Source of the DNA: a virus
Strand: one strand, 5' to 3'
IMG/VR virus record: IMGVR_UViG_3300042691_030306
Coordinates: 1-47,702 of that record
Length of the DNA stretch: 47,702 nucleotides
Part shown: positions 7,454 to 47,702 of the stretch, one piece after another
How the letters are laid out: each line of letters starts with the position of its first letter
How positions within the stretch are numbered: the first letter of the stretch is position 1
The notes under the pieces: model-generated
Told to the model about the DNA's origin: nothing
Databases searched by the model: none
The model's input: only the letters and a program-made list of their open reading frames with translations
Program-made: the position numbers and the translations under genes

Positions 7454-9898
7454 TCAGATTTGAAGAATCATTACAGAATAACTTTGCGTAGAAGCATTAG
7501 AAGGACTGAATGTAATTCTGAATCCTGTTGTTACTTTTTGTACTTCTGGTACTGTGTATGATTCTGTAGTGCTACCAAAAGATACCATTACGGTATAATT
7601 TGCTGATTGTAAAGCAGTGCTAAACGTAAAGTTGGCATTAGTTGTACTGTTTGATAATGAAAGATTATAACCATCAGTGGAAACAATAGATCCACTATCA
7701 ATAGTTGCAAACGCAACTACAGGACTTAGATTTCTAAAAGAGTTTGTTCCATAACCAACCTGAACAGAATTAGTTGTTCTATTATGAACAATTGCACCAG
7801 GTGGAACACCATTTGGAGTTACTCTTCTCGCAGTTGTGTATCCAGTTCTTGTTGAAGTAGCCCATAAGGTACTTACAATATCAAGTTCAGATTGTGTAAG
7901 AGATGGTGGTATGAAATAACTGTTCATCGTTGTCGATGCAGTTCCAACGTCAAGAATACCTCTTGCAAAGTAAGTATTGATACCAATCGTTGTCAGATAA
8001 TTATTTGCATCAAAATTTCCACCTGGTTTGAGTCCACCATTAGTCGTGCCAAATCCTACGGTTGCAACACCAATCTGAGGAACTAATATGATATTCTGAG
8101 TTACAACACTTGCTCCACCTTGGGTGACCATCTGAATGTCACCATAACTGAAGTAAGGAACTTGACTTGAGAATGGTTCAACGTTTGGAATGACTCTAGG
8201 ATCTGAGTAAAATATTCCATCTGTAGAAATACCAAGTCTTCCGGAAAAACTAATGTCTCCTGCGGCTCTCGTACCTCCAGAAACAACTAACTTATAAGAA
8301 CTAGATGGATCAAGTACACTAAATGTGGAGGTATTGATCGCAACTCTCTTTTCAAATATTGAATCTTGTTTTGCGGTAACACCGAGACCAACTTCAACAT
8401 AACCAGCTGTTTTTAGATTGTTAAATGTGCTAAGTCCCGAAGTGGTATTAAAGTTTTGAGATGATGGGAAAGGAATTATACTACCTCCACCAATCGGATC
8501 TAAAACAATCTTAGATGCTCCCGTTCCAATTGTCAGAATACCAACGACTTGAGTATTTCCAGAAACATAGGCAGTTCCGTTGACTTGTAAATTGTAGTCA
8601 GGATTGGAAACATTGACACCTAATTTACCAGCATATGTGAGATCTAGAAGAGTACCGGAATTATATCGAACTCTAAATCCATCAGTTGTTCCAGTGCCAG
8701 TTCCTTCATGAAGATTGAATTCAATACCACCGAGATCATAATTATTGATTTTTAAGAGTCCAGAATCATAAATGAATGCTGCACTACTGTTTCCAAGACC
8801 TACGGACTTACCGATTGCGATCGATGAAGTGCTCGTATCACTGATAACTTCAATTCCAGATGCTCCAGATCTCCTTACTTGTAGATCTTCGGTTGGATTT
8901 GTGGTGCCTATACCAATATTACCAACCACATAAACTGTAGTTGCATTTGCCGTTGTTGCTGTTAATATGCCAACATTAATATTCGGTGTTCCAGAAAGAC
9001 TTGATGCAGTGCTTGCTGTGCCTGTTAAAGAACCAACAAACGTTGTTGCAGTAACAATTCCAGTAGAGAAAATATGACTTGTCGTTACAATTCCTAGTGT
9101 AGATACGCCAGTGACTTGAAGGTTTTGAGTTGTGGTAAGACCAGTCACTCCCAAAGTTGCAACCGTAGAAACACCAGTAACTATATGATTTCTCGTTGTT
9201 GAAAGTCCAGTCACTCCTAACGTTGTGACTGTAGATACACCAGTGACTTGGAGGTTTTGAGTCGTGGTAAGACCAGTAACACCTAAAGATGGGAATGTGG
9301 ATACACCAGTAACCTGAAGATTCTGAGTTGTGATGATTCCAGTAACTGCTAGAGTTGCAATGGTGGATACACCGGTGACTCTTTGATCTCTAGTTGTGGT
9401 GAGTCCAGTCACTCCTAAAGATGAAAATGTAGATATTCCATTAACTAAAACATTTCCTTCTGATGTAATTGCAACTCCACCAGAAGTTTCTGGATTTCCA
9501 CCAATCTGTAACTGATAAACTGGATTTGTGGTTCCTATACCAATTAACAGTGATGTTGAAAGAGTTCCTGCATTCGATATCCATCCAGTTGTGGCAATTG
9601 AAACAACTCCACTCAGTTGAGATCCATCACCTCTGAATGAGATTGCACTAATAATTCCGGATGCACCGATTGTAATGGCAGATCCAACTTTTATGTCACT
9701 TGAGAATGTAGATATTCCAGAAACACTTACGTTTCTAGATTCTAGCAAGCCATTTAATCTCGTAGTGCCAAAAACATCCAATTCCCTGTTGGGAATAGAT
9801 GTTCCGATTCCAACATTGCCTCTTCCATCTACGATTAATCTATCGTTATCAACTTGAACACCACTTCTAAAATTAAATGACTTCCTATAATTTGCCAT
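7454..9898 (-). CDS. Large fibre-like virion protein with GVST repeats
   Basis: An 814-aa protein starting MANYRKSFNFRSGVQVDND. It carries several GIGTTNP-x-LQV motifs (the GIGT-x-P sequence typical of phage fibre shafts). Between about residues 150 and 280 there is a run of roughly 20-residue units of the type TTQNLQVTGVST followed by a TLGVTGL half. Composition is Ser/Thr/Gly/Val-rich with almost no Cys, as in beta-helical fibres. Unlike its upstream neighbour it lacks an S74 chaperone; the C-terminus is a compact beta-rich segment. It probably assembles onto the virion as a tail or head fibre. A late-type AATAAATA lies about 20 nt upstream. Confidence 0.8.
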   Translation of the reverse strand: MANYRKSFNFRSGVQVDNDRLIVDGRGNVGIGTSIPNRELDVFGTTRLNGLLESRNVSVSGISTFSSDIKVGSAITIGASGIISAISFRGDGSQLSGVVSIATTGWISNAGTLSTSLLIGIGTTNPVYQLQIGGNPETSGGVAITSEGNVLVNGISTFSSLGVTGLTTTRDQRVTGVSTIATLAVTGIITTQNLQVTGVSTFPSLGVTGLTTTQNLQVTGVSTVTTLGVTGLSTTRNHIVTGVSTVATLGVTGLTTTQNLQVTGVSTLGIVTTSHIFSTGIVTATTFVGSLTGTASTASSLSGTPNINVGILTATTANATTVYVVGNIGIGTTNPTEDLQVRRSGASGIEVISDTSTSSIAIGKSVGLGNSSAAFIYDSGLLKINNYDLGGIEFNLHEGTGTGTTDGFRVRYNSGTLLDLTYAGKLGVNVSNPDYNLQVNGTAYVSGNTQVVGILTIGTGASKIVLDPIGGGSIIPFPSSQNFNTTSGLSTFNNLKTAGYVEVGLGVTAKQDSIFEKRVAINTSTFSVLDPSSSYKLVVSGGTRAAGDISFSGRLGISTDGIFYSDPRVIPNVEPFSSQVPYFSYGDIQMVTQGGASVVTQNIILVPQIGVATVGFGTTNGGLKPGGNFDANNYLTTIGINTYFARGILDVGTASTTMNSYFIPPSLTQSELDIVSTLWATSTRTGYTTARRVTPNGVPPGAIVHNRTTNSVQVGYGTNSFRNLSPVVAFATIDSGSIVSTDGYNLSLSNSTTNANFTFSTALQSANYTVMVSFGSTTESYTVPEVQKVTTGFRITFSPSNASTQSYSVMILQI
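9085..9440 (-). repeat. Tandem GVST coding repeat in the fibre gene
   Basis: About six copies of a roughly 60-bp unit encoding VTGVST-x3-LGVTGL-x-TTQNLQ. The copies are similar in DNA as well as protein, so slippage or recombination could change the shaft length. Confidence 0.75.
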
Positions 9899-15780: not shown

Positions 15781-15853
15781 TACCCGTGAGTGGATTCGAA
15801 CCACCGCTTGGAAGATTTTAAGTCTTCTGCCTCTTCCGCTGGGCTACACGGGC
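15781..15853 (-). tRNA. tRNA with UAA anticodon (Leu), short variable loop
   Basis: A 73-nt cloverleaf on the minus strand. Acceptor GCCCGTG/CACGGGT has one G-U at the end; T8 and A9 are present; anticodon stem GAAGA/TCTTC surrounds loop CTTAAAA, giving anticodon UAA; the T-arm is GGTGG-TTCGAAT-CCACT; discriminator A; no encoded CCA. UAA reads UUA, a leucine codon. But the variable region is only five bases (CAAGC), whereas bacterial tRNA-Leu normally has a long variable arm. The gene is therefore secure while the amino acid is not. Confidence 0.8.
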
Positions 15854-15865
15854 GTGTATGAGACC

Positions 15866-15894
15866 ATTATAACTCTTAGAGTCTGAATGGTCAA
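15866..15894 (-). promoter_or_regulatory. Sigma-70 promoter between two tRNA genes
   Basis: TTGACC (15894-15889), a 17-nt spacer and TATAAT (15871-15866). The -35 begins one base after the 3' end of the upstream tRNA, and the predicted start is about 6 nt before the next tRNA. Confidence 0.8.
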
Positions 15895-15895
15895 G

Positions 15896-15968
15896 TGCTC
15901 GTTGTCGGTTACGATCCGACCTGTGCCGATTTATGAGATCGGTGCTTTCACCAGATAGCTAAACGAGC
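15896..15968 (-). tRNA. tRNA with CAU anticodon (Met, or Ile2 if modified)
   Basis: A 73-nt cloverleaf: acceptor GCTCGTT/AACGAGC, D-stem GCT/AGC, anticodon stem CCGAT/ATCGG with loop CTCATAA (anticodon CAU), T-stem GTCGG/CCGAC, discriminator A. The stem lacks the three G-C pairs of an initiator, so it is either elongator Met or an Ile tRNA whose C34 becomes lysidine. The T-loop reads ATCGTAA instead of the usual TTCGAAT form, which is odd. No CCA is encoded. Confidence 0.8.
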
Positions 15969-15972
15969 AAGG

Positions 15973-16060
15973 TACGAGTGCCTGGATTCGAACCAGGTCA
16001 AAGCCGCTAATCTGGCGGAAAGAGTTTATAAGACTCCTCTGACTACCAAGTCTCACTCGC
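15973..16060 (-). tRNA. tRNA with long variable arm and UAU anticodon
   Basis: An 88-nt structure: acceptor GCGAGTG/CACTCGT, anticodon stem GGAGT/ACTCT with loop CTTATAA (anticodon UAU), a long variable arm with stem CCGC/GCGG, T-arm CCTGG-TTCGAAT-CCAGG, discriminator A. The D-arm is compressed (GAC-TTGGTA-GTC). UAU would read the isoleucine codon AUA, but a long variable arm belongs to Leu, Ser or Tyr tRNAs. Either an unusual tRNA or one with a changed anticodon. Confidence 0.65.
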
Positions 16061-22989: not shown

Positions 22990-24792
22990 TTACTGTCTCC
23001 ATATTTCGGGCAATCTTTGTCTCTGTGGTGGTGAACTTGATGTTTGTTGCGTCGGAACTGGATATGGAAATGGTACAAAAGTTTCGACTGGTTGAACAGC
23101 ATAAATGAAGAGTGATCGATTACCACCACTGCTTGTATTATTTAATAGTTTTCTGCCACCACCTCCACCAGGTCTTTGTAATGCACCAGACAAACCTTTA
23201 ACTGCATCTGCCACTGGATCTTTAGATGCTGGTTCTATTCTTATTCCTGAAGGTGGTTGTATGACTTGTGCTGGTTTAATTGCTGATGCTGGTGGTTGTG
23301 ATCCAGGTGCTGGTTTTCCTTTAGAAATATCCTTGGCAACGTCAACTAGAACAGAATTTGATGCTCTAAATCCTACACCATTAATATGAAGTGATATATG
23401 AGGATATGGTTTATTTCCAGCGCCAATTGTTCTTCCAGATGCACCTTGATATCCTAATAAAGTTCCTTTTGGTATTATTTGCCCCTCCTTTGCTCCCTTA
23501 AATGGTAAACTCTTAAAATGTCCCATTAAAACTTCGTATTCTTTATTTCCTCTTTTGAAATAATAAGCACCATAATATCCAAATCCTCTTCCAGATGCTC
23601 CTAGAACATCTGCTGTTCCTTGAAGACCAACGGAAGGCATTCCATCTGTTCCTCTGCTTTTATAGATCAAATCGAATGGTGCATAAATTGGTGTCCCAAT
23701 ACCACCAGCAAGATTCATATCTAATCCAGTTTGATTTCCATCCGTATCTCCAGTTGCTCCAATAGAAGCACCAGATGCATAAGTTTGTCCAGAATACTGT
23801 TGATCTCTGATAGATTGTTGATCTGGAGTTGGTTGAGGACCAAATCCAGGACCAGTTTTTCTGGTTTCGGTCAATCCTGATAAAGAACTCCATTCTCTAA
23901 AATTCTTTGACAATTCTGCAAATGCCATCACATTTTTTTCATCTCTTTGAACTGTCTGATTAATATTTTCAACTGCTAAAGAAAAATCTTCAAATCCATT
24001 ACCCATTCCCCTCTCTGCTCTCTTGAGCTGACCACTTTTTCTTGGCTGATATGGTGCTTTTGTTTGTTGATTATTCTCTGGTTGTACAGTTCCACCCTTA
24101 GAAAACTTTTGTGTTGGTTTTTCTGGAGCACTTTTTGGTTGAGATGATTGAGATGTTGGAGATTGTGGAGTAATTGCTGGATACATTGATCCAGGTGCCA
24201 TAAGTGTCATTGGCACAGATGGAATTGAACTTTGCTTTTTATTGTTTTCTCTTTTATTGAGTTCTTTTTCTAGTCGAGATATATCTTTATCCGATTGATC
24301 TGCCAGTTTCAGACCGTCATCAGACTCTTTTTCGATTGCCTTTAGGTTTTGATCTATCTCTTTTTGTTTTTGTGGTGTTAAAAAATCAATAAGTTCCCCA
24401 AGTTTTTGAAATCCTGTTCCGATTGTAGTTAATACACTTCCTACCGTTTTTATAAAATCACTGTTGAAAAATTCTTCAATCTTTGCAATAATGGCAGGAA
24501 TTTTTTGAACTAAGATTCCAAGAGAAATTAGTCCAAAGAAATCCAAAATTCTATCAAAAATATTTCTCGCAGGAGCAGTTACAACATTGACTAATCTTGA
24601 AAATCCTGCACCGATTCCTAAATTTTTAGTCTCTAATCTCGATTCTTCTGCTTTTAATTCTTTTTGTTTTTCTAGTTTGAAAAAAAATTCTTTTTTGTTA
24701 ATTCTAAGTTTTCTCAGTTCTTTATTTGAACTGATCAAATAACTTTTAATGTTTGTAACATTCAGTTTGAGTTGTTTGACTTGAGTATCCAT
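22990..24792 (-). CDS. Tail protein with a degenerate M23-like domain
   Basis: A 600-aa protein. Residues 1-55 are a Lys/Glu coiled coil; 60-140 hold hydrophobic helices (ILDFFGLISLGILVQKIPAI); a Pro/Ser/Gln linker follows. Residues about 350-480 resemble a peptidase M23 fold: GLDM, GTPIYAPFD, MGHF, IIPKGTLLGYQGASG and PHISLHI. The first zinc histidine of the usual H-x-G-x-D is Gln here, and the HLH motif reads H-I-S-L-H, so peptidase activity may be lost. It lies between gp27 and the tape-measure-like gene, so a hub or tail-tip role (T4 gp28/29 region) is likely. Confidence 0.6.
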   Translation of the reverse strand: MDTQVKQLKLNVTNIKSYLISSNKELRKLRINKKEFFFKLEKQKELKAEESRLETKNLGIGAGFSRLVNVVTAPARNIFDRILDFFGLISLGILVQKIPAIIAKIEEFFNSDFIKTVGSVLTTIGTGFQKLGELIDFLTPQKQKEIDQNLKAIEKESDDGLKLADQSDKDISRLEKELNKRENNKKQSSIPSVPMTLMAPGSMYPAITPQSPTSQSSQPKSAPEKPTQKFSKGGTVQPENNQQTKAPYQPRKSGQLKRAERGMGNGFEDFSLAVENINQTVQRDEKNVMAFAELSKNFREWSSLSGLTETRKTGPGFGPQPTPDQQSIRDQQYSGQTYASGASIGATGDTDGNQTGLDMNLAGGIGTPIYAPFDLIYKSRGTDGMPSVGLQGTADVLGASGRGFGYYGAYYFKRGNKEYEVLMGHFKSLPFKGAKEGQIIPKGTLLGYQGASGRTIGAGNKPYPHISLHINGVGFRASNSVLVDVAKDISKGKPAPGSQPPASAIKPAQVIQPPSGIRIEPASKDPVADAVKGLSGALQRPGGGGGRKLLNNTSSGGNRSLFIYAVQPVETFVPFPYPVPTQQTSSSPPQRQRLPEIWRQ

Positions 24793-28454: not shown

Positions 28455-28892
28455 ATGTCATATAAAGGAAGATTTCAACCTTCTTATCCAAACAAATACA
28501 AGGGTGATCATCGAAACATAATTTATCGTTCTCTATGGGAACGAAAATTTATGGTGTATTGTGATACCAACCAGAATATTTTGGAATGGGGAAGTGAGGA
28601 GATGTGTTTACCCTACAAGTCTCCTGTAGATAATCGTTATCACAAATATTTCCCTGATTTTTATATCAAAGTTAGGGAGTCAAATGGCAAGATTAAAAAG
28701 TACATCATAGAAATTAAACCACTGAAGCAAACCATTGAACCAAAAGTTCAAAAAAGAAAAACAAAAGGATATATCTATGAGGTTGTCGAATATGCCAAAA
28801 ATCAGGCAAAGTGGGAGGCAGCACGAGAATGGTGTGCCGATCATGGTTATGAGTTCAAAGTTCTAACAGAAAACGAACTCGGTATTCAATAA
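28455..28892 (+). CDS. 4: Head completion protein gp4
   Basis: A 145-aa protein starting MSYKGRFQPSYPNKYKGDHR. It contains NIIYRSLWERKFMVYCDTN, then EEMCLPYKSPVDNRYHKYFP, then DFYIKVRESNGK and IIEIKPLKQT. This closely follows the T4 gp4 family (head completion nuclease-like protein, PD-(D/E)XK-type with D and E-x-K in the FPDFYI...IEIK segment). It acts late, at head finishing before tail joining. First gene of the only plus-strand block. Confidence 0.9.
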   Translation: MSYKGRFQPSYPNKYKGDHRNIIYRSLWERKFMVYCDTNQNILEWGSEEMCLPYKSPVDNRYHKYFPDFYIKVRESNGKIKKYIIEIKPLKQTIEPKVQKRKTKGYIYEVVEYAKNQAKWEAAREWCADHGYEFKVLTENELGIQ

Positions 28893-39333: not shown

Positions 39334-39729
39334 TCAGAGAGCACGAATGGCAGTCGTTGCTTCTGTGAGTTTTGCTGCTGCTGCGGTTTCTTTTGCTTCT
39401 GCAGTGGCATCATCACCATTCTGTTTTGCTTGTTGTGCTTCACCAGAAAGCACTGCCGCCTCAAAATAAGGAGTGGCAACTGACTGATACTCTACTTCGG
39501 TCAGAACCTGAACGGCATTCTTACCACAAGGACTTACAACGGTTGATACTGCAGTCGAATCAGGAAGTTCTGCAAGGCAAACATCAATACCCTCCGCATC
39601 AGTCAACCAGACCTTTACATTCAGTCCAGCATATTGTCTCCAGGGATGCACCTTCGATGCTGGTTCTGCTGTGTCACAACAGAAGGCACCATTGCTTTCA
39701 TTAACGTAGTAGTGCTTGATATATTGCAT
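39334..39729 (-). CDS. Conserved cyanophage protein, Ala-rich C-terminus
   Basis: A 131-aa protein starting MQYIKHYYVNESNGAFCCDT. A beta-like first half (VKVWLTDAEGIDVCLAELPD) is followed by a helical, Ala/Glu/Thr-rich tail (EAKETAAAAKLTEATTAIRA). It is the last gene of the repeat-protein/oxygenase cassette and may be a virion accessory protein. Codons are G/C-rich. I recall relatives in cyanophage structural regions but no function. Confidence 0.6.
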   Translation of the reverse strand: MQYIKHYYVNESNGAFCCDTAEPASKVHPWRQYAGLNVKVWLTDAEGIDVCLAELPDSTAVSTVVSPCGKNAVQVLTEVEYQSVATPYFEAAVLSGEAQQAKQNGDDATAEAKETAAAAKLTEATTAIRAL

Positions 39730-39747: not shown

Positions 39748-40413
39748 TTAGTTATTTATGGCAATCCCATACTTTTGGGAGAGTTCTTTGTTTTGGTCAT
39801 CCATCGTCGGAAATCCTTTAACCTTTGCCCAGCAAACAATCGAGTATCTTTTCCCTTTTGTAACTGGTTCAACTCCGTGCTTGTAATGATGATTAGAAGG
39901 GAAGCAAACCAACATTCCTGGTTCTGGTCTCACACGAATCTTGAGATCTGGGAAAATAAAATCCCCACCTTCAAAGTCATCGTTGAGATAAAAGACCATT
40001 GATATGTCTCTTTCGGTTGATTTCTTCCAGATCAGTTCACCATCTGGAGTTTGCCAGAGTGACTCACCATCAATGTGTGGACAGTAATGTCCTCCGATTC
40101 CATAAGATAAGATCTGAGGAACCTCACTTTCAGAAATTTCAACACCATAAAAAGGATTCACAACTTCTTTGACGACATTGTGCATCAATTCAATAATCTT
40201 TGGTTGAATTGGACCCATCTCAATATGTTGGGTATCACGAATTGTCTTATCAACTCTCCATTCCTTCCCACCAGTTTCATTTGATTTATGTGGATCAAAG
40301 ACTGCCAGATCGGTTGCTGATGAAGATTTAATATGTTGAACTATTTCTTGAACACCATGTTCATTGATCACATTTGGTTTGATCAAAACATAAGATAAAG
40401 GATTTTCAATCAT
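39748..40413 (-). CDS. 2OG-Fe(II) oxygenase, prolyl-4-hydroxylase-like
   Basis: A 221-aa protein. The iron triad is visible: H113-x-D115 in HYCPHIDGES and H179 in YKHGVEP, with R189 in KGKRYSIVCW for 2-oxoglutarate. DISMVFYLNDDFEGGDFIFP is the typical jelly-roll strand pair and PGMLVCFPS the turn before the distal His. Such enzymes hydroxylate prolines or other residues, nucleobases or small molecules. It directly follows the 1573-aa repeat protein, so that protein may be a substrate; this is inference. Confidence 0.85.
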   Translation of the reverse strand: MIENPLSYVLIKPNVINEHGVQEIVQHIKSSSATDLAVFDPHKSNETGGKEWRVDKTIRDTQHIEMGPIQPKIIELMHNVVKEVVNPFYGVEISESEVPQILSYGIGGHYCPHIDGESLWQTPDGELIWKKSTERDISMVFYLNDDFEGGDFIFPDLKIRVRPEPGMLVCFPSNHHYKHGVEPVTKGKRYSIVCWAKVKGFPTMDDQNKELSQKYGIAINN

Positions 40414-40438
40414 AAGTTTTTGAATATTATACTACTAA

Positions 40439-43400
40439 TTATACTAGAATTGAACTTTCTGGTAGTGCATTGGCTCTGGCACTTGATGCGGCAAGATATG
40501 CACGTGCTGCACTTAATGGAGCACCAGGAACTGCTGCAGTAGTATCAGTCAAATAGGTAACCTTATCCATTGTTGATACTGGACCAGGAAATCCACCGCC
40601 AAAATATCCGGCAGTTGAATTACCTGTTGCACCCATACCATAACGTCCCACACTTAATGCGGCACCAGGAACCGCCAATCTTATATCAGTCGAATAAATG
40701 ACCTTATCCATTGTTGATAATGGACCAGGAGAACCACCACCAAAGTAACCAGCAGTTGAGTTTCCTGTTGCGGCAAGATCTTGTCGTGCTGCACTTAATG
40801 CGGCACCAGGAACTGCTGATGTTGTGTCTGAAGAATAGACTAATTTTTCCACAGTAGTGTTAAACCCAGATCCAGGACCACCTCCACCAAAGTATCCTGC
40901 AGTTGAATTACCTGTTGCGGCAAGACGAAAACGAGTAACAGTTAATCCAGCACCTGGAACTGTTGTTCTAGTATCAGTTGAATAAGTGACCTTATCCATT
41001 GTCGAATATACACTTGGAGAAGGAGTAGAACCACCACCAAAGTATCCTGCTGTTGAGTTTCCTGTTGCAGCAAGACCATAACGAGCAACACTTAAGTTTG
41101 CACCAGGAACTGCTGCAGTGGTGTCTGATGAATAAGTAACCTTATCCATTGTTGATCTAACAGCAGGAAACGATGATAGACCACCACCAAAATATCCTGC
41201 GGTTGAAGATCCTGTTGCAATAGGAAAGTAACGTGCTGCACTTAATGCGGCACTAGGAACTGTTGCTCTTGTGTCTGATGAATAATTAACCTTATCCATT
41301 GTTGATAATGGACCAGGACCACCACCAAAGTATCCAGTATTGGGAACAGAATCAGCAATAAAAGTCGGTTGAGGTAGTGCATTTGCTCTGGCACTTGTCG
41401 CAGATAGATTGAAAAGACCCACACTTAATGCGGCACCAGGTACTGCTACCCTAGTATCAGATGAATAAGTAACCTTCTCCATCGATGATACAACAGAAGG
41501 AGTAACACCACCACCAAAGTATCCTGCAGTTGAATTACCTGTTGCGGCAAGATTGGCACGTGTAACACCCAATGCTGCACCAGGAACTGCAGATGCGGTA
41601 TCAGTTGAATAGGTGACCTTATCCATTAATGATGATAGAGGTTGACCACCACCAAAGTATCCGTGTGTTGAGTTTCCTGTCGCAGCAAGTTGGTATCGTG
41701 CTGCAGATAATGAAGGAGATGCTGCGGTTGTATCAGTTGAATAAGTGACCTTATCCATTGTTGATCTAACAGAAACTCCAACACCACCACCAAAATATCC
41801 GGCAGTTGAGTTTCCTGTTGCGGCAAGCTGATGTCGAGCAATACTTAATGATGCACCAGGGACTTGTGCCGTGGTATCTGTCGAATAGGTCACCTTATCC
41901 ATTACCGATCTTGCTCCAGGAGCAAGAAATCCACCACCAAAGTAACCAGCAGTTGAGTTTCCTGTTGCGGCAAGATTACGACGAGAACTACTTAATCCAC
42001 CTCCAGGAATTGTAGAAATAATTGATCTACTATCAGACGAGTAATGGATTTTATCCATTGTAGTCAATGGTCCACCACCACCACCAAAGTATCCATGTGT
42101 TGAGTTTCCTGTTGCAGCAAGACCATAACGTGCTGAACTTAGTGCTGCAGTAGTTGATAATGATGTCGTATCAGATGCATAATTGACTTTATGTATTGAT
42201 GAGTAAGTCGCAGGAACAGAAGAATTTCCTCCAGAAAAATATCCATCATTTGAAGTTGAAAAATTAATTGTTGCTGGTGTTAGTGTGAATGCCGGTGGTT
42301 GTGAAAGTGCGTTTGCTCTGGCACTTGATGCCGCAAGACCAGCACGATTAAGACTTAATGCGGCACTATGAACTGTCGATGTTGTATCTGTTTCGTAAGT
42401 GACCTTTTCCATCGATGTTAATGGACCAGGATTACCACCACCAAAGTATCCTGCCCCCAAATTACCTGTTGCGGCAAGAGAACTACGAGCAACACTTAAT
42501 GCGGCACCAGGAACTACTGATCTTGTATCAGTCGAATAGGTGACTTTATCCATTGTTGCTACTGCACCAGGACCACCACCACCAAAATATCCGGCAGTTG
42601 AGTTTCCTGTTGCGGCAAGACCATAACGTGCCGAACTTAATGCTGCCCCAGGAACTACTGATCTTGTATCAGTCGAATAGGTGACTTTATCCATTGTTGA
42701 TCTTGGAGAACCATCAAGTCCACCACCGAAATAACCTGCTGTCGAGTTTCCTGTTGCGGCAAGATATCCACGTGCTGCACTTAATGCGGCACCAGGAACT
42801 GCTACAGTAGTATCAGTCGAATAGGTAACCTTATCCATTGTTGAATAATAAGGAAACCCACCTCCACCACCAAAGTATCCTGCTGTTGAGGAGCTTGTTG
42901 CACCAATATATTGACGAGCAATACTTAATGATGCACCAGGAACTGTTGATCTTGTATCAATAGAATAAGTGACCTTATCCATTGTGGTATACGGTCCAGG
43001 ACCACCTCCACCAAAGTATCCTGCCGTCAAAGATCCTGTTGCTCCCATAGCCAAACGAGCAACACTTAATGCAGCACCAGGAACTGATACTGTTACATCA
43101 GTTGCATAGGTAACCTTATCCATTGTTGATCTTAGACCTGGAGAACTACCACCACCAAAGTATCCGGTGTTTGGACCAGAAACGGTGTTGTCGGTAAATC
43201 TCTTTTCAGATCTATCAACATCTTGAGGAAGTGCATTTGCTCTAGCACTTGATGCTGCAAGACCACTACGAGCACCACTTAGAAATCCCGTAGTGGGAAG
43301 TGCTGCTGTTGTATCATTCGAATAAGTAACCTTATCCATTGTTGATGCATCAGTTGGACCAGCAACACCACCACCAAAGTATCCTGCCGATGAAGATCCT

Positions 43401-45037
43401 GTTGCAGCAAGAGAATTACGAGCAAGACTTAATGCAGCACCAGGAACTGCTGCTGTTGTATCAGTTGAATAAGTGACTTTATCCATTGTTGAGGATGTAG
43501 GAAATCCACCACCAAAGTAACCTGCCGTTGAGTTCCCTGTTGCAGCAGGATAAGTACGAGCAGAACTTAATGCGGCACTAGGAACTGCTGCTGTCGTATC
43601 AGATGCATAAGTGACCTTATCCATTGTTGAAAAGGGACCAGGAAATCCACCGCCAAAGTAACCAGCAGTTGAGTTTCCTGTTGCGGCAAGACCGGAACGA
43701 GCAGCACTTAATGAAGCACCAGGAACTGCTGCAGTAGTATCAGTCGAATAAGTAACCTTATCCATTGTTGAGAATATTGATGGAGAAGGATTCTGACCAC
43801 CACCAAAATATCCGGCAGTTGAAGATCCTGTTGCGGCAAGACCATAACGTGCCGAACTTAATGCTGCAGCAGGAACTGCTGCTGTGGTGTCTGATGAATA
43901 AGTGACCTTATCCATTGTTGAGGATGTTGTTGAGGGGCTAAGGCCCCCTCCACCAAAATATCCGACAGTAGAGTTTCCTGTAGCAGCAAGAAAACGACGA
44001 GCCGAACTTAATGCTGCAGTAGGAACTGCTGCCCTAGTATCAGATGAATAAGCAATCTTATCTATTGACGAATAAAATGCAGGAAAAGCACTACCTCCAC
44101 CAAAGTATCCGGTGTTCGGAATTTCTGCTGCCACTGAGAACGGAAGTACATTGGATCTTGCACTCGATGCTGCAAGATAACGACGGGCAGCAGTTAATGA
44201 GGCACCAGGAACTGAAGCAGTAGTATCAACAGAATAAGTAACCTTATCCATTGTTGAGGATGACGCTGCAGGACTAGGAGATCCCCCACCAAAATATCCT
44301 GCCGATGTAGAAGATGTTGCGGCGTGAGCAGCACGTGCTATGCTTAGTGGAGCACCAGGAACTGCTGCTGTGGTATCAGTCGAATAAGTGATCTTATCCA
44401 TCGTGGAATAATATCCGGGAGTACCAGGTCCAAGTCCACCACTAAAGTATGCTGCTGTTGAGTTACCTGTGGCAGAAAGACTAAGACGTGCAACACTTAA
44501 TGCGGCACCAGGAACTGCTACCCTAGTATCAGATGAATAAGTAATTTTATCCATTGAGGATAATGGTCCAGGTCCACCACCACCAAAGTATCCTGCTGTT
44601 GAGTTTCCTGTTGCAGTAAGATAACGACGGGCACCACTTAATGCGGCACCAGGAACTGCTGCAGTGGTGTCTGATGAATAAGTGACCTTATCCATTGTTG
44701 AGGATGTTAATGGGGCAGTAACAGCTCCTCCACCAAAATATCCTGCGGTTGAGTTACCTGTTGCACCAAGAGCACCACGCGCAAGACTTAATGAGGCGCT
44801 AGGAACCGTCACTCTTATATCAGTCGAATAAATGACCTTATCCATTGTAGAATAGTATCCTGGAGTACCAGGGCCAAGTCCACCACCAAAATATCCTGCG
44901 GATGAAGATCCTGTTGCGGCTAAAGATCCCTTAGTAAAACTCAATGCAGCACCAGGAACTTGTGCGGTTGTATCTGATGAATAAGTGACCTTTTCCATTG
45001 ATGATAATGGACCAACAAAACCTCCACCGAAGTAACC
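40439..45037 (-). repeat. 30 tandem 140-165-bp coding repeats in five groups of six
   Basis: Group boundaries lie at about 44150, 43215, 42295 and 41370, each marked by the ARANALP-type linker. Long stretches (for example GAGTTTCCTGTTGCGGCAAG on the complementary strand) are almost unchanged between units, so recombination between copies is expected. Confidence 0.9.
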
Positions 45038-45160
45038 AGTGTTTGGTGCTGACAGTGGTGAAGGTGCTATCCACACATCACTCAATGAAACCCATCCATA
45101 AAGAGGTATCTTTTCTTCTCTAATATAACTTAATCTGAAGACTCCTCTGGTATTTGCCAT
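40439..45160 (-). CDS. Kelch-like multi-propeller repeat protein
   Basis: A 1573-aa protein. A 41-residue head (MANTRGVFRLSYIREEKIPL and on) is followed by 30 units of the form GYFGGG-x(4-11)-TMDKVTYSTDT, then TAAVPGAALSAAR-x3-AATGNSTA. After every sixth unit the AATGNSTA end is replaced by an ASSARANALP-type linker of up to 40 residues, so the protein is 5 x 6 units. GG pairs and conserved aromatics fit kelch-type blades, implying five six-bladed propellers in a row. Relatives occur in marine phages, annotated as fibre-like or unknown. Likely a virion surface adhesin. Late-type CATAAGTA lies near its start. Confidence 0.8.
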   Translation of the reverse strand: MANTRGVFRLSYIREEKIPLYGWVSLSDVWIAPSPLSAPNTGYFGGGFVGPLSSMEKVTYSSDTTAQVPGAALSFTKGSLAATGSSSAGYFGGGLGPGTPGYYSTMDKVIYSTDIRVTVPSASLSLARGALGATGNSTAGYFGGGAVTAPLTSSTMDKVTYSSDTTAAVPGAALSGARRYLTATGNSTAGYFGGGGPGPLSSMDKITYSSDTRVAVPGAALSVARLSLSATGNSTAAYFSGGLGPGTPGYYSTMDKITYSTDTTAAVPGAPLSIARAAHAATSSTSAGYFGGGSPSPAASSSTMDKVTYSVDTTASVPGASLTAARRYLAASSARSNVLPFSVAAEIPNTGYFGGGSAFPAFYSSIDKIAYSSDTRAAVPTAALSSARRFLAATGNSTVGYFGGGGLSPSTTSSTMDKVTYSSDTTAAVPAAALSSARYGLAATGSSTAGYFGGGQNPSPSIFSTMDKVTYSTDTTAAVPGASLSAARSGLAATGNSTAGYFGGGFPGPFSTMDKVTYASDTTAAVPSAALSSARTYPAATGNSTAGYFGGGFPTSSTMDKVTYSTDTTAAVPGAALSLARNSLAATGSSSAGYFGGGVAGPTDASTMDKVTYSNDTTAALPTTGFLSGARSGLAASSARANALPQDVDRSEKRFTDNTVSGPNTGYFGGGSSPGLRSTMDKVTYATDVTVSVPGAALSVARLAMGATGSLTAGYFGGGGPGPYTTMDKVTYSIDTRSTVPGASLSIARQYIGATSSSTAGYFGGGGGFPYYSTMDKVTYSTDTTVAVPGAALSAARGYLAATGNSTAGYFGGGLDGSPRSTMDKVTYSTDTRSVVPGAALSSARYGLAATGNSTAGYFGGGGPGAVATMDKVTYSTDTRSVVPGAALSVARSSLAATGNLGAGYFGGGNPGPLTSMEKVTYETDTTSTVHSAALSLNRAGLAASSARANALSQPPAFTLTPATINFSTSNDGYFSGGNSSVPATYSSIHKVNYASDTTSLSTTAALSSARYGLAATGNSTHGYFGGGGGPLTTMDKIHYSSDSRSIISTIPGGGLSSSRRNLAATGNSTAGYFGGGFLAPGARSVMDKVTYSTDTTAQVPGASLSIARHQLAATGNSTAGYFGGGVGVSVRSTMDKVTYSTDTTAASPSLSAARYQLAATGNSTHGYFGGGQPLSSLMDKVTYSTDTASAVPGAALGVTRANLAATGNSTAGYFGGGVTPSVVSSMEKVTYSSDTRVAVPGAALSVGLFNLSATSARANALPQPTFIADSVPNTGYFGGGPGPLSTMDKVNYSSDTRATVPSAALSAARYFPIATGSSTAGYFGGGLSSFPAVRSTMDKVTYSSDTTAAVPGANLSVARYGLAATGNSTAGYFGGGSTPSPSVYSTMDKVTYSTDTRTTVPGAGLTVTRFRLAATGNSTAGYFGGGGPGSGFNTTVEKLVYSSDTTSAVPGAALSAARQDLAATGNSTAGYFGGGSPGPLSTMDKVIYSTDIRLAVPGAALSVGRYGMGATGNSTAGYFGGGFPGPVSTMDKVTYLTDTTAAVPGAPLSAARAYLAASSARANALPESSILV

Positions 45161-45162
45161 TC

Positions 45163-45981
45163 TTAAAAATACTTATGATTAGAATACTTCCAGTATTCCA
45201 AGTTACTATACCTATTTAGAATCTCATCACTCAAAATACTCTCTGGTTTCGAAGACACTTTTTCCAATTTACCACGAACATGATGCATGTCTTTGAGATA
45301 CCACTGATCATCAATTTCACGATGCGTGTTTTCAATGTGACCAAAGTTATGAGTATAAGATTCGACTCCCAGAAACTCATAGATTCGATTCATAGTTTCA
45401 TTTGGTTTTGCAATCAGATCATCATACTCAACCATTAACAAATACTTCTGATCTCCACGAATGAATGCCTGTGATTGTGCCCAGAGTGCCTGTTCTACAA
45501 TACCTTCTTTACTCATCAGATAGTGACACCGATTATCATCCGTGATTGGGTATCCTCTTTCAATCAGATGCTGATCAATAAAAGAAACCTGATCTGAATT
45601 GCGTCGGATCATTGTAATAAAAGAAGTCAGAATCTCTGTAATATTCCGAACAGGACAAATGATCTTTGGTTCTGGTGTGATATAAGTTTTAATGCGTTCA
45701 ATATTATTACTCCAAGCACGACAGTGATCGATGATAATGGGTTTCTCCACATCAAAGTAGTAGTCTTCAATGATTGTAGAAACAATCCGATGTGCCGATT
45801 TTGGTTTTGGATACCCAAGATACTGTTCACTATCAGAAAAATAATGATCGTTCCAATACATCAGTTCCATCACAGGACTCACTGGTTCCGTATGAAGTTC
45901 TGGATTCTGATTCAAAATACTTTTCAATAGAGTGCTACCAGATCGTGGAAGACCTGCCATGAAATAATAAGTTTTATTCAT
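45163..45981 (-). CDS. PAPS-dependent sulfotransferase family protein
   Basis: A 272-aa protein. AGLPRSGSTLLKSILNQNPE (9-28) is the phosphosulfate-binding loop of sulfotransferases. The second PAPS site (3'-phosphate) is probably PEPKIICPVRNITEILTSFI, with R and S/T residues, and KYLLMVEYDDLIAKPNETMN is the usual following strand. It transfers sulfate from PAPS to a sugar, tyrosine or other hydroxyl. It lies between two repeat proteins and beside a 2OG oxygenase, so modification of the adhesin or of host surface glycans is possible. Confidence 0.85.
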   Translation of the reverse strand: MNKTYYFMAGLPRSGSTLLKSILNQNPELHTEPVSPVMELMYWNDHYFSDSEQYLGYPKPKSAHRIVSTIIEDYYFDVEKPIIIDHCRAWSNNIERIKTYITPEPKIICPVRNITEILTSFITMIRRNSDQVSFIDQHLIERGYPITDDNRCHYLMSKEGIVEQALWAQSQAFIRGDQKYLLMVEYDDLIAKPNETMNRIYEFLGVESYTHNFGHIENTHREIDDQWYLKDMHHVRGKLEKVSSKPESILSDEILNRYSNLEYWKYSNHKYF

Positions 45982-45982
45982 A

Positions 45983-46597
45983 TCACCATTCAGTAGGATT
46001 AAAGAAAAATAATTGAACTAGACGACCGTTTTGTAAATTGGTTCCGAAGTTATAGTTATGAGAGTGCCAAAGATTTGTCTTGAAGATCACTATTCTATTA
46101 TACTTCATCGGTGAAAGCAAGTACCGAGTCCATTTAGAACGATCTAAACCTTCACCATAAACCGTTGTCCACCATGCCTCTTTTGCCGATGAGTATCCAA
46201 GATGCTTTGCCTCATCATCTGTGCGTGGACAGGTTTCTGTGTGAGTTTTATTGTGAATCCAGAACGATGTGCCACCTTCATCGATGACCTGTTCTGGTGG
46301 ATTGAGATAACAGACGGCACCAAACTCCCAGACTGGATCGACATGAACATCCTGGCGGTAGGTATCAGTCTCTAATGACAGACGAAAATATCCGTTTGGT
46401 TGTGCAGGAGTCAATTTACGATTCAAAATTGTCTCAAACTTTTGATGCAGTGATTCTGGATAATAACCATCTCTTGAGTTCTTTCCAGGATAGGTATACC
46501 CATCAGTTGGTTCTGGATACGATTCGTTCAGTGCGAACTGTCGAATCTCATCAGGGTTTGAATAGAAATCATCAATGACAATAATATTACGTCTCAT
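45983..46597 (-). CDS. 2OG-Fe(II) oxygenase-like protein, DUF6445 type
   Basis: A 204-aa protein starting MRRNIIVIDDFYSNPDEIRQ. H85-x-D87 (VHVDP), distal H178 or H180 (LWHSH) and R192 (NGRLVQLFFF) make a plausible iron/2OG site. GAVCYLNPPEQ and GGTSFWIHNKT resemble DUF6445. Its sequence is clearly different from the oxygenase at 39748-40413, although both follow a kelch-like repeat gene through a nearly identical junction. Confidence 0.75.
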   Translation of the reverse strand: MRRNIIVIDDFYSNPDEIRQFALNESYPEPTDGYTYPGKNSRDGYYPESLHQKFETILNRKLTPAQPNGYFRLSLETDTYRQDVHVDPVWEFGAVCYLNPPEQVIDEGGTSFWIHNKTHTETCPRTDDEAKHLGYSSAKEAWWTTVYGEGLDRSKWTRYLLSPMKYNRIVIFKTNLWHSHNYNFGTNLQNGRLVQLFFFNPTEW

Positions 46598-46622
46598 AGG
46601 TTTTTAAATATTATAACACTAA

Positions 46623-47702
46623 TTATACGTTAACTGGTGCAGGGTATGTTGGTTGAGGTAGTGCATTTGCTCTTGCGCTTGATGCTGATGAAATACTACG
46701 AGCAACACTTAAAGCAGCACCAGGAACTGCTGCAGTGGTATCTGATGAATAAGTGACCTTATCCATTGTTGAAGATGTAGGAAATCCAGCCCCAAAGTAT
46801 CCTGCTGTTGAGTTTCCTGTTGCAGCAAGAGAACTACGAGCAACACTTAATGCAGCACCAGGAACTGCTGCTGTTGTATCACTTGAATAAGTAACCTTAT
46901 CCATTGTTGATCTTGAATTGAAAGATCCATCAACACCACCACCAAAGTATCCTGCGGTTGAGTTTCCTGTTGCAGCAAAACGATAACGAGCAAGACTTAA
47001 AGCAGCACCAGGAACTGCTGCTGTTGTATCACTTGAATAAGTAACCTTATCCATTGATGACCCTCCTCCGAAACCAAAACCACCACCAAAGTAACCAGTA
47101 GTTGAATTTCCAGTAGCAGAAAATTGATAACGAGCAGCACTTAATGAGGCACCAGGAACTGTTGATCTTGTGTCTGATGCATAAGTGACCTTATCCATTG
47201 TTGAAAATGGACCAGCAGGACTTCGTCCTCCACCAAAGTAACCTGCCGTTGAGTTTCCTGTTGCAGCAAGATAACCACGTGCTGCACTTAATGCAGCACT
47301 AGGAACTGCTGCAATAGTGTCTGAAGAATAAGTAACTTTTTGAATTGTTGAATAGTATGACGCAGGCCAAATTTGTCCACCACCAAAGTATCCTGCTGTT
47401 GAAGACCCTGTTGCAGCAAGATCACTAAGAGCAGCAATTAAAAACGCACTAGGAACTGCTGCAGTAGTATCTGATGAATAAGAGACCTTATCCATTGTTG
47501 ATCTTATAGGAGTCTGCGGACCACCACCAAAGTATCCTGTGTTTGGTGTTGGTGCGAATGATGGGGTCTCAAAAGTTGGTTGTGATAATGCGTTTGCTCT
47601 AGCACTTGATGCTGCAAGACTATAACGTGCTGCACTTAATGCGGCACCAGGAACTGCTGCTGTGGTGTCAGACGAATAAGTGACCTTATCCATTGTTGAT
47701 AA
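46623..47702 (-). CDS. Partial kelch-like repeat protein (C-terminal 359 aa)
   Basis: Runs off the window end; the visible part reads into the window as LSTMDKVTYSSDT, so the true start is outside. It holds the last part of one repeat group, a linker (ARANALSQPTF and on), then a full group of six GYFGGG units, ending ARANALPQPTYPAPVNV. The units are the same as in the 1573-aa protein, so this is a paralogue. One unit reads GYFGAG. Confidence 0.85.
   Translation of the reverse strand, partial: LSTMDKVTYSSDTTAAVPGAALSAARYSLAASSARANALSQPTFETPSFAPTPNTGYFGGGPQTPIRSTMDKVSYSSDTTAAVPSAFLIAALSDLAATGSSTAGYFGGGQIWPASYYSTIQKVTYSSDTIAAVPSAALSAARGYLAATGNSTAGYFGGGRSPAGPFSTMDKVTYASDTRSTVPGASLSAARYQFSATGNSTTGYFGGGFGFGGGSSMDKVTYSSDTTAAVPGAALSLARYRFAATGNSTAGYFGGGVDGSFNSRSTMDKVTYSSDTTAAVPGAALSVARSSLAATGNSTAGYFGAGFPTSSTMDKVTYSSDTTAAVPGAALSVARSISSASSARANALPQPTYPAPVNV
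46623..47702 (-). repeat. Kelch-like coding repeats, second gene
   Basis: Six complete units plus the end of a further group, close in DNA sequence to those at 40439-45037, about 1.5-2 kb away in the same orientation. Confidence 0.9.

Follow-up and report, generated by a model that had tools for sequence, protein, structure and literature searches.

Why would a virus intersperse genes for long repeat proteins with genes for two oxygenases and a sulfotransferase? The question arises from a 47,702-nt stretch of the virus record IMGVR_UViG_3300042691_030306 (the window), in which positions 39748–47702 hold a cassette of five minus-strand open reading frames (ORFs) in the order repeat protein B, DUF6445 protein, sulfotransferase, repeat protein A, and a protein resembling prolyl 4-hydroxylases (P4H-like), separated by 25, 1, 2, and 25 nt. 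A preliminary description had reported these ORFs, their single orientation, their order, and gaps of 1–25 nt, all of which were recovered when the coordinates were re-derived, and had proposed that the phage decorates its own surface protein. We favor, at about an even chance, a related reading in which the cassette is the adhesin part of a tail or virion-surface locus of a T4-like cyanophage (Kyanoviridae-like), and the repeat proteins are propellers that are hydroxylated, glycosylated, and/or sulfated by the co-encoded enzymes.

The repeats of A and B, 46–51 residues long, are predicted Kelch-type blades, a kinship overlooked in the preliminary description, and by sequence and modeling the two proteins are strings of six-bladed propellers. 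The description's recognition of two repeat proteins is borne out: A comprises five six-repeat blocks (30 repeats in all), every block starting with (N)TGYFGGG and finishing with a linker similar to SSARANALP, and B closes with a single six-repeat block, its visible part comprising the end of one propeller, a linker, and one full six-bladed propeller. A phmmer search with the repeat protein matched the designed six-blade kelch protein SAKe6BR (2e-7) and also Keap1. An AlphaFold model of propeller 1 of A (mean predicted local distance difference test score, pLDDT, 69; predicted template modeling score, pTM, 0.75) has short recurring strands and is matched by Foldseek to the six-bladed Kelch domains of KLHL12, Keap1, and SAKe (E 5e-14; template modeling [TM] score by target 0.80–0.85). 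Blade number supports the propeller fold independently, as 194 of the 224 complete distinct kelch ORFs in related viral contigs have 6, 12, 18, 24, 30, or 36 detected blades, and indicates that whole propellers, not single blades, are gained and lost.

Among 279 aligned blades the Kelch hallmarks are kept in the double glycine (99–100%) and the strand-3 tyrosine (100%), and the Kelch tryptophan position, seven residues past the conserved tyrosine, is mostly alanine. A Pfam search of the repeat proteins matched no family, Kelch models included, and this result together with the replaced tryptophan marks the blades as Kelch-type by fold and outside the curated sequence family. The blades share a near-invariant framework (GYFxGGG, MDKVTYS, DT, PGA, LS, AR, and AATGN) and have hypervariable sites in the loop after GGG, whose length also varies (entropy up to 3.7 bits), and at the residue pair that follows AR (3.1 and 3.2 bits). 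In the alignment with the Keap1-derived design these sites adjoin the double glycine and the blade arginine, positions that line the ligand pocket in Keap1. The variable loop and residues thus align with the Keap1 ligand face, and the predicted scaffold somewhat resembles that of an antibody, with variable loops on a constant framework.

Most kelch genes also share an N-terminal segment (TRGVFxL...W...DVW), which may be a docking segment with exchangeable heads. Used as a probe for further structural proteins in isolates, it gave weak matches only, all in the same single-cell phage genomes. Two proteins of another contig (L059:14276–17677) have this kelch-type segment fused to FG-GAP (integrin-like) propellers in place of kelch blades, so that the head domain seems exchangeable. 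A different architecture is seen at L241:9389–10945 and in the near-identical L242–L244 and L248, where a 518-aa protein combines immunoglobulin-like (Ig-like) and fibronectin type III domains with one six-bladed kelch propeller and no decoration enzymes are present; its Ig part resembles Stenotrophomonas phage proteins annotated as ‘whisker’ or ‘capsid decoration’.

The enzyme assignments made in the preliminary description (DUF6445-like, sulfotransferase, and P4H-like) hold up in Pfam searches, with matches of 3e-16, 1e-17, and 2e-17 that are above cut-offs, and the conserved catalytic residues suggest that all three look active. The P4H-like protein matches PF13640 (2OG-FeII_Oxy_3; 64 bits, cut-off 27), retains the HxD...H triad and arginine (H113, D115, H179, and R189) in at least 95% of 68 relatives, and has collagen prolyl 3-hydroxylase 1 and bacterial P4H as its nearest PDB chains; it belongs by these features to the 2-oxoglutarate (2OG)-Fe(II) oxygenases and is a putative peptidyl-proline hydroxylase. 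The DUF6445 protein keeps H85 x D87 ... H178 ... R192 in at least 95% of 74 relatives, and while a sequence search found no solved structures for it, its AlphaFold model (pLDDT 91) agrees with a double-stranded β-helix fold and is matched best by prolyl hydroxylases including PHD2 (6e-5; TM about 0.5, which speaks to fold class only). With such neighbors, the PHROG label ‘minor coat protein’ is probably misleading. The sulfotransferase matches PF13469 (Sulfotransfer_3; 65 bits, cut-off 27) and has a loop for binding 3′-phosphoadenosine-5′-phosphosulfate (PAPS) and a VRN..S motif, with P12, R13, G15, T17, R112, and S120 conserved across relatives; its nearest PDB chains are the tyrosylprotein sulfotransferases TPST2 and TPST1, a weak similarity (E 0.002) chiefly over the PAPS loop. 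A search of 85,000 bacterial and archaeal genomes with close patterns found no relatives of the sulfotransferase, and thus no origin for it.

Two variants of these enzymes were noticed in related contigs. The 207,616-bp contig IMGVR_UViG_3300046171_000252 (L051:6517–7350) has the sulfotransferase in two overlapping frames of 180 and 119 aa, the sole broken copy noticed, reflecting either sequencing error or decay. A second, short DUF6445 protein (L010:5021–5527 and some 30 relatives), usually encoded beside a kelch gene, has HxE...H and lacks the 2OG-binding arginine, and so may be no active oxygenase, perhaps an inactive partner.

The coupling of kelch and enzyme genes recurs well beyond the window. 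Loci fetched via the enzymes contain kelch genes, a result that is partly circular, and the converse fetch was made with the S-SKS1 kelch protein alone; at least one cassette enzyme was present in 69 of 69 loci obtained this way, some contigs among them being near-duplicates. Forty of these loci are at least 12 kb long, and they contain the GT4-FkbM family (glycosyltransferase family 4, GT4, with FkbM methyltransferase; 40 loci), P4H (39), sulfotransferase (32), a second glycosyltransferase-like gene (27), and DUF6445 (10). The preliminary description would have been undermined by a lack of association between repeats and enzymes in related genomes, and the association instead recurs in dozens of contigs. 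It is specific as well: every Sulfotransfer_3 match in ten records of 71–349 kb lies within the kelch cluster, as does the single 2OG-FeII_Oxy_3 gene of a 222-kb and of a 219-kb record. More distant DUF6445 proteins, encoded at 48 other loci and about 30% identical, have no kelch neighbors, so the tie to kelch belongs to the cassette DUF6445 subfamily.

Within 52 non-redundant loci the enzymes are interleaved with the kelch genes, with 19 kelch–kelch adjacencies observed against 36.3±4.3 expected and none of 5000 shuffles as low. Intergenic gaps are short (median 6 nt, with 368 of 402 no longer than 60 nt), every one of the 775 cassette genes scored has the orientation of the kelch genes, and the order of the enzymes is shuffled along with the kelch copies from locus to locus.

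The motif TAAATA, the core of T4-type late promoters, was counted within 150 nt upstream of genes with its reverse-complement as control, and precedes 139 of 222 kelch genes (control 39), 66 of 123 P4H genes (7), 56 of 101 GT4 genes (3), and nearly all of 95 genes (5) of family c1, which follows P4H; the distance is mostly 0–75 nt. It precedes kelch A and the c1 gene in the window, and likewise the structural genes at 28455, 29318, 27609, and 21176; the total number in the window is no higher than chance, so the evidence lies in the position of the motif. Most sulfotransferase and DUF6445 genes lack a TAAATA directly in front of them and are probably expressed from transcripts that start further upstream.

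The cassette is flanked upstream by genes of a tail-structural family (c3) and downstream by genes whose members in the S-SKS1 clade carry a Phage_tail_APC domain; the N-terminal part of the c1 product is homologous to these proteins. Beyond c1 are NrdC, ThyX, gp33, gp59, and gp32, ordered as in Synechococcus phage S-SKS1, and gp23 was found in five large relatives; together these mark the phage as T4-like and very probably a cyanophage. Late-type signals and linkage to tail genes are what is expected of a phage adhesin or tail fiber, and late expression is predicted on this basis. No membrane segments were detected by hydropathy in the products tested. Coordinates are given in Table 1.

Table 1. 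Positions of the cassette genes, their parts, and the adjoining gene in the window.
Feature	Position	Strand	Evidence or remark
Kelch-propeller protein B, C-terminal part	46623..47702	(-)	Open at window end; blade counts; phrog_19111 2.6e-50
DUF6445 protein, 204 aa, 2OG-Fe(II)-oxygenase-like	45983..46597	(-)	PF20043 3.4e-16
Sulfotransferase, 272 aa	45163..45981	(-)	PF13469 1.2e-17; PAPS-binding loop GLPRSGSTLL, VRN..S motif
Late-promoter-like TAAATA (within CTAAATAG)	45213..45218	(-)	52 nt upstream of kelch A
Anchor-like N-terminal segment of kelch A (MANTRGVFRLSYIREEKIPLYGWVSLSDVWIAPSP)	45041..45160	(-)	Common to nearly all kelch genes of related phages
Kelch-propeller protein A (1573 aa): five predicted six-bladed propellers, 30 blades in all	40439..45160	(-)	Blade counts, model of propeller 1
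Propeller 1 of A	44114..45040	(-)	Blade positions
Propeller 2 of A	43169..44113	(-)	Blade positions
Propeller 3 of A	42248..43168	(-)	Blade positions
Propeller 4 of A	41339..42247	(-)	Blade positions
Propeller 5 of A	40442..41338	(-)	Blade positions
P4H-like 2OG-Fe(II) oxygenase, 221 aa	39748..40413	(-)	PF13640 2.2e-17
Late-promoter-like TAAATA	39753..39758	(-)	23 nt upstream of 131-aa gene (c1)
131-aa conserved gene (family c1), next after P4H	39334..39729	(-)	Homology to S-SKS1-like proteins

The window ends inside what is predicted to be the middle kelch gene of a longer cassette, as judged from the related locus L010, in which the order is kelch, glycosyltransferase-like (c2), GT4 (c0), a second gene of the c0 family, the short DUF6445, kelch, DUF6445, sulfotransferase, kelch, P4H, and c1. 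In several relatives c0 unites a GT4 glycosyltransferase and an FkbM methyltransferase in one fusion protein, and others have a carbamoyltransferase in addition. Between L010 and the window, DUF6445, sulfotransferase, and P4H are 91–95% identical in DNA and 97–98% in protein, whereas the kelch A proteins share 70% identity, with five propellers in the window versus four in L010; the adhesin is, by this comparison, evidently the fast-moving part of the cassette. A modular scaffold with a fixed framework and hypervariable loops, in which propeller number shifts though the enzymes remain nearly identical, may underlie turnover of host range.

Elsewhere in the window, a tail protein gene (7454–9898) contains a 66-nt tandem repeat of 5.3 copies (9098–9446), three tRNA genes (Leu-TAA, Met-CAT, and Ile-TAT) are located between tail genes at 15781–16060, and a 600-aa baseplate-region protein (22990–24792) has a weak match to Peptidase_M23 (0.0014).

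In the favored reading the kelch proteins would consist of one to six six-bladed propellers preceded by a short, conserved N-terminal segment for docking, and every propeller would present a binding face with the hypervariable post-double-glycine loop and the two post-arginine residues. Kelch and enzyme genes would be expressed late, alongside the structural genes, and the interleaved enzymes would work in the cytoplasm on freshly made propeller proteins before assembly. The P4H-like and DUF6445 oxygenases would hydroxylate propeller side chains; the glycosyltransferase/FkbM-methyltransferase, with a carbamoyltransferase in some relatives, would build and then cap glycans; and the sulfotransferase would sulfate either glycan or protein. 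Such decoration may adjust how the particle binds, how stable it is, or how it is recognized. Gene context suggests that the kelch proteins are carried in virions, as does the precedent of Kelch protein CBB_552, which was detected by mass spectrometry in virions of phage CBB (PMC5259590).

The core of the earlier proposal, a surface adhesin with enzymes that decorate it, thus gains from the linkage, interleaving, late-type motifs, and tail context, and further from the intact catalytic residues and from nearest solved relatives that modify proteins (prolyl hydroxylases and, weakly, TPSTs); its argument from acceptor sites is not supported. The tyrosine of DKVTYSTDT, suggested as a sulfation site, is rejected as such because it is an invariant framework residue, present in all 279 repeats and aligned with the conserved Kelch tyrosine of the Keap1-derived design, and the proline of VPGA, also suggested as an acceptor, occupies the site ahead of the conserved arginine where Kelch blades usually have a proline. 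Given the presence of GT4-FkbM and carbamoyltransferase genes, sulfate is more likely to be accepted by glycans, whether of the propeller or of the host, than by tyrosine.

Several observations weigh against propeller decoration. No conserved acceptor residue was identified in the propellers. An N-x-S/T sequon of the N-glycosylation kind at the ‘GNST’ turn was considered and rejected: it occurs in 791 of 1204 turns with asparagine, but entire clades carry NSN, NAD, or SST at this place, and the sequence is better explained as a turn. Prolines are threefold enriched in the variable loops (14% versus 4%), but about equally with and without a visible P4H gene (P4H-less loci being few and mostly truncated). 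Enzyme-free kelch phages exist (L241–L244, L248, and BcepSaruman), so decoration is not needed for the fold. Finally, enzymes of the glycan type could equally target host surface sugars.

This last point leads to the main rival, which we consider unlikely, namely that the enzymes remodel host surface glycans (lipopolysaccharide or exopolysaccharide), for instance against superinfection, and are encoded next to the kelch adhesins because enzymes and adhesins have to do with a common receptor. Capping of glycans is indeed typical of enzymes such as GT4, FkbM methyltransferase, carbamoyltransferase, and sulfotransferase; however, no flippase, polymerase, or membrane-anchored glycosyltransferase was recognized in the cassette, the hydropathy result gives no membrane segments, late-type promoters come late for superinfection exclusion, the solved relatives of P4H and DUF6445 include many protein prolyl hydroxylases, and the enzymes alternate tightly with kelch genes. 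It is improbable that the substrates are other tail proteins, such as the long repetitive c3 fibers, with the kelch proteins as bystanders: large c3 genes do flank the cassette, but the enzymes sit between kelch genes and not between c3 genes, and their order shuffles with the kelch copies. Eukaryotic kelch domains serve as protein-interaction adaptors, and the phage proteins could by analogy be intracellular protein-binding hubs within a host-takeover module and not virion parts; late-type promoters, tail-gene neighbors, propellers that diversify far faster than the adjacent enzymes, Ig/fibronectin–kelch fusions with a ‘whisker’- or ‘capsid decoration’-like Ig part, and the CBB precedent leave this a low probability. 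That these are ordinary auxiliary metabolic genes, with oxygenases that draw down 2-oxoglutarate or repair DNA, as such enzymes are viewed in the literature (PMC3037559; PMC13079714), and a sulfotransferase in sulfur metabolism, is very improbable, because position and signals independent of virion genes would be expected, whereas the enzymes have late-type motifs and a specific, conserved coupling to kelch genes, and in two near-genome-sized records the only copies of the whole record are inside the kelch cluster.

If the propellers are indeed the substrates, a broader and more tentative proposal is that T4-like cyanophages and larger gp23-bearing phages widely possess a dedicated multi-step pathway of hydroxylation, then glycosylation, methylation, and carbamoylation, then sulfation, for modular, fast-diversifying propeller adhesins, a counterpart of hydroxyproline-linked sulfated glycoproteins. 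Many virome genes now classed as metabolic may be virion-decoration genes.

Among known proteins, the Kelch domains of Keap1 and KLHL12 are likewise six-bladed, and the phage variable residues align with the ligand-binding loops of Keap1; the phage blades differ in the mostly alanine-substituted tryptophan, the lack of BTB and BACK domains, and an identity of only 16–18%. Kelch-type β-propellers of tailed phages are already known from jumbo phages (CBB_550/552/554, reportedly also giant phages of Yersinia and Pseudomonas, and BcepSaruman); no annotated enzymes of the cassette kinds lie within 8 kb of the BcepSaruman kelch gene. The proteins described here differ in having up to six chained propellers, a shared N-terminal segment, loop variation like that of antibody complementarity-determining regions, and interleaved enzymes. 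Kelch proteins in phage virions are known, while the open-licence literature searched yielded no description of the cassette and no conserved set of enzymes alternating with genes for multi-propeller kelch proteins; the function of phage sulfotransferases has been described as unclear (PMC10580990).

Phage Syn9 has runs of 2OG oxygenases and tryptophan halogenases (gp41–gp60) that likewise include DUF6445-type proteins, but no gene is annotated as kelch in the stretch read and its DUF6445 is about 27% identical to that of the cassette. This run (L195; Syn9 33425–50009) includes two tryptophan halogenases beside the 2OG oxygenases and also two ‘minor coat proteins’, of which tblastn identifies one as DUF6445-like; it may represent a further array for decorating proteins. 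A further counterpart is in S-SKS1 (Llyrvirus), where SWZG_00284–00291 and SWZG_00001–00003 follow the same order of kelch genes, sulfotransferase, P4H, a tail-chaperone-like gene, and then NrdC to gp32. DUF6445a was not found at this locus, and at the ends of the deposited record (L190/L191) P4H and several of the kelch ORFs are broken into fragments, perhaps by frameshifts in that record. The S-SKS1 genes have been annotated piecemeal (‘hypothetical’, ‘sulfotransferase’, ‘2OG-Fe(II) oxygenase’), and their linkage offers a concrete, testable substrate, the adjacent Kelch propellers, in a cultured phage that grows on Synechococcus WH7803.

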